Shown: in pieces, positions 37,612 through 40,403 of the stretch
How positions within the stretch are numbered: position 1 is the first letter of the stretch
Layout of the letters: every line of letters begins with the position of its first letter
Source of the DNA: an uncultured Pseudomonadota bacterium
GTDB lineage: Bacteria; Pseudomonadota; Gammaproteobacteria; Burkholderiales; CAIKXV01
Length of the DNA: 41,218 bases
Direction: 5' to 3'
Assembly: GCA_903831455.1 (NCBI GenBank)
Contig: CAIKXV010000152.1
Location: forward strand, 1 to 41,218
Program-made: the position numbers and the translations under genes
The notes under the pieces: generated by a model
Databases searched by the model: none
Seen by the model: the letters and a program-made list of their open reading frames with translations, nothing else
Told to the model about the DNA's origin: nothing

Positions 37612-38685
37612 ATGCTGAAACTGGCGATCCTGGAAGGCGACGACATCGGACTGGAAGTCGTGCCCGAGTGCGTGAAGGTCATGCGCGAGGCGGCCGCCGC
37701 CACCGGCCTCGGGATCGACTGGCGACCGATGCCGATCTCGCGCGCCGGACATGCCGCCGCGGGGCACACGGTACCGCCCGGAACGCTGGAGACGCTGGCG
37801 ACGCTGGATGGCTGGGTACTGGGTCCGATCGGCCATCGGGAGTACCCGAAGGGCGACCCGAGCTGGCTCAACCCGCACCCGCTGTTCCGGACCCACTTCG
37901 GACTGTTCGCCAACTACAAGCCGTTCCGCTCCTACCCGAACCTGCCTTCGCTGCACAAGGACATCGACCTGCTGTTCCTGCGCGAGACCACCGAGGGCTT
38001 CAAGACCGACGGCAACCTCTTCCGCGGCTACGGCGAGTTCATGCCCACCGAGACCACGGCCATCGGCATCTGCGTGACTACCGCGCACAAGAGCCGGCTC
38101 ATCGCCGAGGCCGCCTTCGAGGCCGCCCGCGACCGGCCGCGGCGCAAGGTGACCGCGGTACACAAGAACACCGTCTATCGCTACGGGGACGGCCTGTTCG
38201 CGAACGAATGCCGCGAGGTCGCGAAGCGCTTCCCGGACGTGGAGTTCGAGGAGGTGATCGTCGACACCTTCGCGATGCGCCTGGTGATGAAGCCCCAGCA
38301 GTACGACACCATCGTCACCACCAATCTCTACGGCGACATCCTCACCGACGAGGCGGCGGGGCTGATCGGCGGGCTGGGGATGGCGCCCGGCGTGAACGCG
38401 AGCGAGACGCTGGCCATGGCCCAGGCCACCCACGGCTCGGCACCCGACATCGCCGGGCGCGGCATCGCCAACCCCTACGCGATGATCATGTCGGGACGGC
38501 TGCTGTTCTCCTGGCTCGCGCGCCGGCACGACGAGCCTCGTGCGGCGCAGGCGGGCACGCTGGTGGAGCGTGCGATGGAGCGGGTGATCGCGCAGGCGAC
38601 GACGCTCACGCCCGACCTGGGGGGCAGCGCCCGGACGCAGGACATGGGTGATGCAGTGGCCCGGGCGATCGACGCGGTGCGTTGA
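37612..38685 (+). CDS. Isocitrate/isopropylmalate/tartrate dehydrogenase family protein
   Basis: The 357-residue beta-decarboxylating dehydrogenase oxidises a malate-type hydroxy acid at the carbon next to the carboxylate, using NAD and a divalent metal. Seen: an N-terminal GDDIGLEVVPE (usual GDGIGPE), FLRETTEGF and YGEF in the substrate region, AVHKNTVYRYGDGLF with the catalytic Lys, VDTFAMRLVMKP and the metal-binding TTNLYGDILTDEAAGLIGGLG, then THGSAPDIAGRGIANP. Family members include isopropylmalate, homoisocitrate and tartrate dehydrogenases. It follows the receptor by 25 bp, so receptor, lyase and dehydrogenase likely serve the same acid. Confidence 0.91.
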   Translation: MLKLAILEGDDIGLEVVPECVKVMREAAAATGLGIDWRPMPISRAGHAAAGHTVPPGTLETLATLDGWVLGPIGHREYPKGDPSWLNPHPLFRTHFGLFANYKPFRSYPNLPSLHKDIDLLFLRETTEGFKTDGNLFRGYGEFMPTETTAIGICVTTAHKSRLIAEAAFEAARDRPRRKVTAVHKNTVYRYGDGLFANECREVAKRFPDVEFEEVIVDTFAMRLVMKPQQYDTIVTTNLYGDILTDEAAGLIGGLGMAPGVNASETLAMAQATHGSAPDIAGRGIANPYAMIMSGRLLFSWLARRHDEPRAAQAGTLVERAMERVIAQATTLTPDLGGSARTQDMGDAVARAIDAVR

Positions 38686-38721: not shown

Positions 38722-39291
38722 TCAGCGGTCCGACCGGCTGCGCGCGCGCAGGGACTGCGCGTACTCGCCCTGCTTCGCGCCCAGCGTCTTCAGCCAGCGC
38801 TGCCCGCCGAAGGTGAAGCCGATCCAGTAGCCCAGTTCCACCAGCTGGGGCTCGGTGAACTCCGCGCGCAGGGCCTCCCACATGGCATCGTCGGCCTGGG
38901 CGGGGTCGTACATGATCGCGTCGCAGTAGCGCAACGCGAGCTTCTCGCGCGGGGTGAAGCGCGCCGAGCTCTCGTACGACATCAGTTCGGACATCCGGCT
39001 GTCGGCGTCCCGCGCGGACCGCGCGGTTCCCTGGTTGCTTCAATACCCGCACTCGATCGAGTGCGCGATGTAGGCGCGGGTGAGTTCCTTGAGATCGTGC
39101 TCGACCACGCCGGCCCCGTTGTCGAAGAGCATCTCGCGGGTGATCGTGAACGAACGCATCACGTCGGGCTGGTGGGCGCGGATCGCCTGGTTCTCCGGGC
39201 CGGGACGGCCCGCCTGCACGGCGGCGTCGAGCCAATCGCGGATCTGGGGGTCGGTGATCGTCTGCGGATCGATGTAGTCGATGCGTGCCAT
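38722..39291 (-). CDS. Carboxymuconolactone decarboxylase (CMD/AhpD-like) protein with in-frame UGA, candidate selenoprotein
   Basis: Two open segments on the same frame, MARIDYIDPQT...AHSIECGY and SNQGTARSARDADS...FTPREKLALRY..., are separated by a single TGA at 39042-39040. Together they make a normal-length CMD protein of 189 residues. The TGA stands at residue 84, where CMD/AhpD-like relatives have the second Cys of CxxC (CGYC); the result is C81-G-Y-Sec84. Residues after the TGA keep the family pattern, down to IGFTFGGQRWLKTL. The downstream segment has no Shine-Dalgarno before its first ATG (38994). A SECIS-like hairpin follows. Normal termination is also by TGA. If the TGA is not recoded, this is a nonsense pseudogene. 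GGGAGA lies about 9 nt before the ATG at 39291. Confidence 0.65.
39010..39026 (-). promoter_or_regulatory. SECIS-like hairpin downstream of the in-frame UGA
   Basis: On the minus strand CCGCGCG (39026-39020), loop GTC (39019-39017) and CGCGCGG (39016-39010) form a perfect 7-bp stem. The loop begins 20 nt after the TGA at 39040. Bacterial SECIS elements are stem-loops inside the coding region with a G early in a short apical loop, roughly 16-37 nt after the UGA. The GGUC around this loop resembles that of the E. coli fdhF SECIS. In GC-rich DNA a chance hairpin cannot be excluded. Confidence 0.45.
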
Positions 39292-39428
39292 GGTGACGGG
39301 TCTCCCGGGCAAGGTGCCCGTGCTAATCTGGTCGCCACACTAGAGCAGTCGCGGCAGCCACGCAACCGCCCGCCCTGCGCGGCGCGCAGTACGCGCCCGC
39401 CTGCGCGGTGCCGAACAGGAGGAGCACG

Positions 39429-40403
39429 ATGCCATCACCCTTCCGCACGCTTGTCGCATCGCTGCTGGTCGCAGCCCTCGGCGCACCGTCGGTCTTCGCG
39501 CAGCAGTGGCCACAGCGTCCCTTGCGCATGCTGGTGCCGCAGGGCGCAGGCTCCTCGAACGACACCCTCTCGCGCATCGTCGCCCTGCGGCTGTCGGAGA
39601 TCCTCGGCCAGCAGGTGGTCGTCGACAACCGTCCGGGTGCCGGCGGCATCATCGGCATGGAGCTGGCCGCGCGTGCAGCACCCGACGGCTACACGCTGCT
39701 CGGCACCGCCACGGCCACGCAGGTCATCGCGCCGCTGATCCAGCGACGGCTCTCGTTCGACCCCATGCGCGACCTCGCGCCGGTCTCGCTGTTCGGCGTC
39801 ACGCAGAACGTGGTGGTGGTGCATCCCGCGCTGGCCGCGAAGTCGCCACGAGAGCTGATCGCGCTGCTCAAGGCGTCGCCGGGACGGTTGAACATGGCCT
39901 CGGCGGGCGCCGGTTCGCAGAGCCATCTCGCTGGCGTGCAGTTCCTGCTCGCCAGCGGCACGGATGCCACGCACGTCCCCTACAAGGGCGGCGGAGCCTC
40001 GGTGGCCGCGGTGGTCAGCGGCGAGGCGCAGTTCACGATCACGCCGCTTCCGGCCACCCTGACCTTCATCCGCTCGGGGCAGTTGCGTGCGCTGGCCACC
40101 GCCGGCGGGCAGCGCGCGGCGCAACTCGCCGAGCTGCCCACGCTCGACGAAGCGGGCCTGAAGGGCTTTCGCTCCACCGGATGGGTCGGGCTGATGGTGC
40201 CGTCGGGTACCGCGGCGCCGCTCATCGGGCGTCTCAACGAGGCGGTCGTCAAGGCACTGGCCGACCCTGCCACCCAGGAGCAGGTGAGCCGTGCCGGTGC
40301 CGATCCGGTGTCGAGTACGCCGCAGGCGTTCGGCCAGCTGATCCGCGAGGAGTGGGACCGCCTGCGACAGGCGGTCGCTGCCGCGAAGCTGGCGGTCGAC
40401 TAG
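39429..40403 (+). CDS. TctC/Bug-type periplasmic solute receptor
   Basis: The 324-residue protein has a Sec signal (TLVASLLVAALGAPSVFAQ), then RMLVPQGAGSSNDTLSRIVALRL, GQQVVVDNRPGAGGIIGME, PDGYTLLGT, HVPYKGGGASVAAVVSG and GWVGLMVPSG. The first ligand loop PQGAGSSND differs from PPGG forms. AGGAGGAG 4 nt before the ATG supports the start; an in-frame codon at 39408 would add 7 residues. It is divergent from the CMD gene with 137 bp between. Confidence 0.93.
   Translation: MPSPFRTLVASLLVAALGAPSVFAQQWPQRPLRMLVPQGAGSSNDTLSRIVALRLSEILGQQVVVDNRPGAGGIIGMELAARAAPDGYTLLGTATATQVIAPLIQRRLSFDPMRDLAPVSLFGVTQNVVVVHPALAAKSPRELIALLKASPGRLNMASAGAGSQSHLAGVQFLLASGTDATHVPYKGGGASVAAVVSGEAQFTITPLPATLTFIRSGQLRALATAGGQRAAQLAELPTLDEAGLKGFRSTGWVGLMVPSGTAAPLIGRLNEAVVKALADPATQEQVSRAGADPVSSTPQAFGQLIREEWDRLRQAVAAAKLAVD

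Follow-up and report, generated by a model that had tools for sequence, protein, structure and literature searches.

The locus considered here raises the question of whether an in-frame TGA ends a gene or is translated as selenocysteine (Sec). The gene is located on the minus strand (38722..39291) of the window, i.e., the whole stretch of 41,218 nucleotides from an uncultured Pseudomonadota bacterium that was analysed, and is recognized by its orthologues and its AlphaFold2 fold. It starts with an ATG at 39291 and comprises 189 codons followed by a TGA terminator (38724-38722), with a single further TGA in frame at codon 84 (39040..39042, minus strand). Translation with table 11 without recoding yields two open reading frames, one at 39040-39312 and one at 38722-38994, the latter opening with an internal ATG (38992..38994, minus strand) that we do not regard as a genuine start. 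The read-through protein contains C81-G-Y-U84-S-N, in which C81 (39049..39051, minus strand) is the first Cys of a CxxU motif; C81 and Glu69 (39085..39087, minus strand), 12 residues N-terminal of it, are both nearly invariant in alignment A2. The coordinates, the strand, the 189 residues and the TGA at 39042-39040 given in the initial annotation of this DNA are all exact. In the reading preferred here, to which a probability of about 0.96 is assigned, the gene codes for a member of the CMD/AhpD-like superfamily that is a selenoprotein, with UGA84 read as Sec. An open frame, a conserved TGA, a covarying hairpin, a complete set of Sec genes and a predicted fold, all computed here, carry this reading.

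Conservation of the reading frame and of the TGA

Selection on the coding sequence does not relax at the TGA, pN/pS being 0.216 ahead of it, 0.197 in the part that follows and 0.191 past the hairpin described below (190 pairs, 20 orthologues). Since the constraint past the TGA equals that before it, the stretch beyond the TGA is protein, in agreement with the earlier claim of an open, family-like frame. The predicted anti-Shine-Dalgarno pairing amounts to -7.4 kcal/mol at the start at 39291 versus -4.0 kcal/mol at the internal ATG at 38994, the latter value being close to the median of -3.6 kcal/mol for the 462 minus-strand ATGs of the window; this agrees with the absence of a ribosome site belonging to the downstream part, as originally noted.

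Codon 84 is TGA in all 23 distinct orthologous loci with a readable site (76-85% identity). In a search of 60 genomes that took in the window's own, seven of the 11 genus genomes, again counting the window's own, proved to hold an orthologue with 79-85% identity and one TGA; among these is G008, which is 83% complete, and no such orthologue was found in G004, G005, G006 and G010, two of which are 84% complete. Fifteen loci came from the scan of a second collection. The site is spanned by 13 of them, all with TGA; the other two are L058, which stops before the site, and L059, a distant protein. All 15 records of this collection are titled as metagenome-assembled genomes (MAGs) of Burkholderiales, Betaproteobacteria or beta proteobacterium, with two of Bordetella parapertussis, and the L059 record is titled Bradyrhizobium. 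Both MAG contigs with the Bordetella parapertussis title (L045 and L053) contain the gene and cluster with the MAGs that bear the title Burkholderiales; their own title is probably a database mislabel. Among 300 genomes searched from the order, nine contain the clade, each with one TGA; this search contributed three distinct loci, with L156 counted as the same contig as L048, since the two contigs are equally long and the tree shows no difference between them. The named loci are all MAGs. No Cys orthologue occurs among the 23 loci, including those of the nine carriers in the 300 genomes. The alignment of homologues called for at the outset therefore gives a TGA that is not private to one strain, followed by a downstream sequence that has not decayed.

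The same position is informative in the paralogues. At the UGA position, TGA is found in the relatives and the second Cys of the CxxC motif in the Cys-form paralogues, as had been supposed from the single sequence, and the frame of the Cys forms is continuous through the point of the internal ATG. Seven of the 11 genus genomes, including the window's own, have a 55%-identical paralogue, family B, with TGA in every case, and the window's genome holds a third TGA-containing CMD gene on contig C44 (CHYUMAHN). Among the rows examined, the Cys form is confined to one paralogous group (CE(F/Y)CGNQ, 15 rows) that has a support of 97 in a rapidly built tree, in which long branches were flagged and from which L032 (a near-copy), L058 (cut before the site) and L059 (a distant protein) were left out. 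In row L021, both Cys and Sec are absent from the site.

Two further loci show other arrangements of these genes. At G108:C17:2661-3860 (L161, L168), two CMD paralogues, one of the Cys form and one of the Sec form, lie in tandem about 150 bp apart, and a Cys/Sec heteromer formed by this pair is conceivable. At G012:C5:70396-74242 (L082, L104, L145), from another family of the order, selB, a tRNA-Sec gene and two CMD genes are found within 4 kb; one of the CMD genes has a TGA in CSYUGN, and the other has neither Cys nor Sec.

The SECIS hairpin and the selenocysteine machinery

A 6-bp stem with a 5-base loop (CCGCGC-GGUCC-GCGCGG) begins 13 nt past the UGA, at 39010..39026 on the minus strand, with 39026-39021 pairing with 39015-39010 and the loop GGUCC at 39020-39016. 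The hairpin is identified by covariation. When 31 distinct stretches representing five Sec subgroups are aligned, pairing is kept in all 186 cells, and the second loop G does not vary among the Sec forms. Both sides change at four of the six pairs, giving 22 such cells versus 3.3 in shuffles, and the covariation score is 0.421 versus 0.114; on the three measures of paired cells, double-changed cells and covariation score, none of 500 shuffles is as high, with the caveat that the tested structure was derived from the same sequences. Cruder measures are weaker, as 19 of 500 shuffles reach four double-changed pairs and 11 of 500 reach nine further pair types. Identical 39-nt stretches were entered once (24 of 29 in the first alignment, then those 24 plus 8), L156 (= L048) was not added, and the 24-stretch alignment gives the same picture as the 31-stretch one. 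Sliding the partner by 1-3 columns lowers the pairing to 26-57%. In L010, the stem is preserved by a double change at the price of an Ala-to-Val replacement, and the Cys paralogues form only 0-3 of the six pairs at the same place in all 15 rows (14 distinct stretches). Furthermore, synonymous variation reaches its minimum of 0.128 in the 12-codon window that opens one codon before the UGA, compared to a median of 0.389 over 166 windows.

The hairpin proposed in the initial annotation is thus upheld by covariation in the 31 Sec stretches and not by its single-sequence stability: folded by itself, the hairpin of the window shows no exceptional stability given its base composition (z -0.86, with 38 of 200 shuffled versions folding equally well), as may be expected of DNA with 71-73% G+C. 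The evidence for a SECIS element here is comparative. The UGA and SECIS as modelled together (39 nt, 39004..39042, minus strand) score 60.9 bits with the covariance model R1, the window sequence itself being among the sequences from which R1 was built. A whole-genome scan with R1, in which 150 of 13,053 first-look candidates were scored, returned three sites at E 0.001, all of them in CMD genes. R1, built from CMD sites, missed the selD site, the fdhG site and the G012 and G020 hairpins at E <= 1; it is specific to part of the CMD-type sites, so the scan yields no count of the selenoproteome.

The search for selA, selB, selC and selD suggested with the original observation found all four in the same genome (G000), a draft of 4.1 Mb in 306 contigs with 97.8% completeness and 4.5% contamination. 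The tRNA-Sec gene is located on contig C282 (79 bits, typed SeC(tca) by ARAGORN), selA on C223, and selB on both C282 (14056-15945) and C223 (4380-6275; loci L039 and L040). The selD gene (G000:C142:18877-19818, L150) has an in-frame TGA of its own (GGUGCK) and also terminates in TGA, so that selD probably is a selenoprotein gene itself. An FdoG-type formate dehydrogenase on C282 (L151), its family named from sequence, contains an in-frame TGA as well (ARIUHAPTVSSLGPTFGRG). There are 12 tRNA-Sec hits in this genome, of which the two best were typed as SeC and Ser; an odd UCA tRNA may be present among the ten weaker ones. In the genus, tRNA-Sec was found in all seven genomes searched (72.9-79 bits) and full-length SelB in 9 of 11; G004 (84% complete) has SelB pieces only, one adjoining its tRNA-Sec, and G008 has no SelB above the cut-off. 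A selA above the cut-off is present in all four gene carriers from other families.

Two full-length SelBs occur in only one of the 11 genus genomes, the window's own, and share 44% identity. The C223 SelB adjoins selA and is of the genus type, with 64-66% identity to the five genus relatives compared, and no tRNA-Sec hit was obtained on C223. The C282 SelB lies between fdhE (named from sequence) and the tRNA-Sec gene. Given the contamination of the assembly, C282 may be foreign to this genome, in which case the genome's own tRNA-Sec would be unseen. Tetranucleotide agreement of C282 and C223 with the window is 0.94-0.97, compared to 0.91-0.95 for contigs of other genus members, and with values this close the test separates little. 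PMC8124441 gives background on selB-selC.

In the mechanism we infer for this gene, which includes Sec insertion itself, service of the gene by one of the two SelBs and a redox function of the product, SelD would make selenophosphate and SelA would convert Ser-tRNA-Sec into Sec-tRNA-Sec. SelB, positioned on the hairpin just past the UGA, would then deliver Sec-tRNA-Sec, so that UGA84 is translated as selenocysteine. The product would carry a C81-x-x-U84 pair in place of the CxxC of its Cys relatives, and would most likely be a redox enzyme, either a peroxidase or a disulphide/selenenylsulphide oxidoreductase.

Three other explanations of the TGA have been weighed against Sec insertion. The very improbable reading of the UGA as another amino acid, e.g., Cys, by a dedicated tRNA and SelB recalls the proposal, in PMC7609411, that some Deltaproteobacteria have an opal-anticodon tRNA-Cys variant with its own second SelB, and the window's genome does have two SelBs. 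This reading is rejected on the presence of SelA, SelD and tRNA-Sec(tca); in addition, the gene and selD both use TGA as terminator, and tRNA-Sec is found in all seven genus genomes searched. Still less credible is a pair of proteins, one of 83 residues that stops at the TGA and one of 90 residues initiated at the internal ATG. That ATG, at codon +19, is kept in the clade (20 of 20 alignment rows), but its ribosome-binding match is close to that of a typical ATG of the window, the Cys-form paralogues are continuous through this point, and a covarying, in-register hairpin would be superfluous for a plain stop; a split gene is rejected on these grounds. The lowest probability of all falls to a sequencing error or a recent nonsense mutation in one strain (TGC to TGA), i.e., a pseudogene. 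Such an event needs a difference of only one base, and the assembly is a fragmented draft, but the TGA recurs on different contigs in every distinct orthologous locus, the carriers in the 300 genomes include no Cys orthologue, and pN/pS past the TGA resembles that before it. The conserved TGA together with the conserved frame beyond it led to its rejection.

Family membership, fold and likely chemistry

The selenoprotein carries the CxxC/CxxU motif of the CMD/AhpD-like superfamily in the form C81-G-Y-U84, and is predicted to adopt the AhpD/CMD helical fold. The AlphaFold2 model, computed from alignment A2, has a pLDDT of 86.6 and a pTM of 0.82. A fold search with this model returned 30 PDB chains at E <= 0.001 with TMq values of 0.59-0.73, the best being the AhpD-core protein 2prr (TMq 0.73). 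The titles of these 30 chains name AhpD, CMD, peroxidase-related or antioxidant-defence proteins, Bmp8, or PA0269, the last being called AhpD in the title of 7xw1 and elsewhere a hypothetical protein or one of unknown function. By sequence profile, the protein remains below the cut-offs of the named families. It scores 18.9 bits against the PF02627 gathering score of 23 bits, and the gene is absent from the 17 PF02627 hits of its genome; 26 of the 35 A2 members match PF02627 at E <= 0.01. With TIGR01926 (peroxid_rel), it reaches 26.1 bits against a cut-off of 81.8. Its best NCBIfam match is NF053654 (GroundWater_YciW), at 52.4 bits (E 5e-14) against a cut-off of 310 bits, and all 35 A2 members match this model at E <= 0.001; the window protein is accordingly a relative and not a member of this 'YciW-related (seleno)protein' family.

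Proteins of this kind have been known for some time. As the earlier reader stated, AhpD/CMD-like selenoproteins have already been reported: in PMC1088965, CxxU AhpD-like and CMD-domain selenoproteins are described from the Sargasso Sea, in print since 2005. In the same year, a relative of 4-carboxymuconolactone decarboxylase was tabulated for Geobacter sulfurreducens (PMC1242214), and the later catalogues PMC9312934 and PMC13188914 contain both AhpD-like and CMD selenoproteins. Compared with the AhpD-like selenoproteins (COG2128 YciW/TIGR01926) as portrayed in PMC1088965, PMC9312934 and PMC13188914, the window protein is alike in its AhpD/CMD type, its CxxU, the SECIS directly past the UGA and the conserved G of the loop, but it lies below the TIGR01926 cut-off and belongs to a clade of its own in which no Cys member was seen. 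With the CMD domain selenoproteins (PF02627), as described in PMC1088965, it shares the CMD type and CxxU, but not a PF02627 score above the cut-off. In the open-licence literature, no paper on this clade was found, the Deng et al. 2026 groundwater MAG survey cited in PMC13188914 lying outside that literature; nor was a paper found there on selenoproteins of Burkholderiales MAGs, and nothing relevant on Bmp8 was among the matches listed. By comparison of sequences, the present genes very probably constitute a new clade of an already known kind of selenoprotein.

AhpD itself offers a partial guide to the active site. The Mycobacterium tuberculosis protein shares the CxxC-type redox pair and a conserved Glu that precedes the first Cys by 12 residues; by this spacing, Glu69 presumably corresponds to the active-site Glu of AhpD. 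In contrast to AhpD, the window protein has Sec for the second Cys and lacks the His of AhpD proper, located four residues past the second Cys (H137), with Gly at residue 88. The M. tuberculosis AhpD structures are weak fold matches, at ranks 45 and 50. The best solved relative by family profile is the debrominase Bmp8 (8.5e-21; 6ohi, 6ohj), which has the same fold over most of its length (TMq about 0.7) and whose CxxC aligns with the CxxU. Bmp8, though, has Cys at both places, and with 15-16% identity in the structural alignment the likeness is one of fold and motif only. C82 of Bmp8, which is presumably its catalytic residue, aligns with C81.

A selenol/thiol oxidoreductase or peroxidase activity seems the likeliest and is put forward with reasonable confidence. 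It is unlikely that the predicted selenoprotein instead catalyses reductive dehalogenation or a similar nucleophilic reaction of the selenol, as in Bmp8. The rank of Bmp8 among the solved relatives speaks for such chemistry, as does the alignment with C81 of the residue mutated in 6ohj, titled as the C82A complex with a bromopyrrole. However, the window protein alone reaches Bmp8 at E 0.85 only, other AhpD-core proteins equal Bmp8 by fold, and the six neighbour proteins scanned contain no match to a dehalogenase family. Selenol chemistry of this type has a precedent in the deiodinases, which dehalogenate.

Gene neighbourhood and meaning of the clade

The gene is flanked by a divergently transcribed gene for a TctC/Bug substrate-binding protein (PF03401 by Pfam; 39408..40403, plus strand) and by a gene of the isocitrate/isopropylmalate dehydrogenase family (PF00180 by Pfam; 37612..38685, plus strand) that is a convergent neighbour only. 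Within 400 bp, a TctC gene is present at 18 of the 24 orthologous loci, compared to 4 of the 8 loci of family B and 1 of the 14 loci of the Cys paralogues. In this count, the Cys paralogues serve as the background, related loci are not independent, L058 is included with one flank only, and L156 and L168 (on the same contig as L161) are left out. The TctC/Bug neighbour hints at a possible functional link with the uptake or catabolism of organic acids. Between 34444 and 40403, the window holds three TctC/Bug receptor genes in 6 kb (two assigned by Pfam, the first by similarity) together with a methylisocitrate-lyase/PEP-mutase family gene and the PF00180 dehydrogenase gene, and this content suggests an organic-acid catabolic cluster.

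A more far-reaching proposal, slightly less probable still than Bmp8-like chemistry, would combine these observations. In it, the Sec-only CMD clade of the Burkholderiales would cooperate with Bug/TctC receptors to take up and break down an organic acid, using nucleophilic or reductive chemistry of the selenol (e.g., dehalogenation) beyond the reach of the Cys paralogues. The two divergent SelBs of the window's genome, with one detected tRNA-Sec and one SelB travelling with formate dehydrogenase, would possibly differ in their SECIS preferences.

For bacterial selenoproteins in general, gain and return to Cys have been described as a balance (PMC13188914). The clade examined here looks Sec-dependent because none of its 23 orthologous loci has Cys. 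What started as a guess from one genome has become a selenoprotein clade whose genes would each be broken into two by ordinary gene callers. The clade would be well suited to finding out which tasks of Sec are beyond Cys. The TctC neighbour may offer an initial clue to the substrate, and with the second SelB it could be examined whether two factors that read SECIS elements can operate in a single genome.
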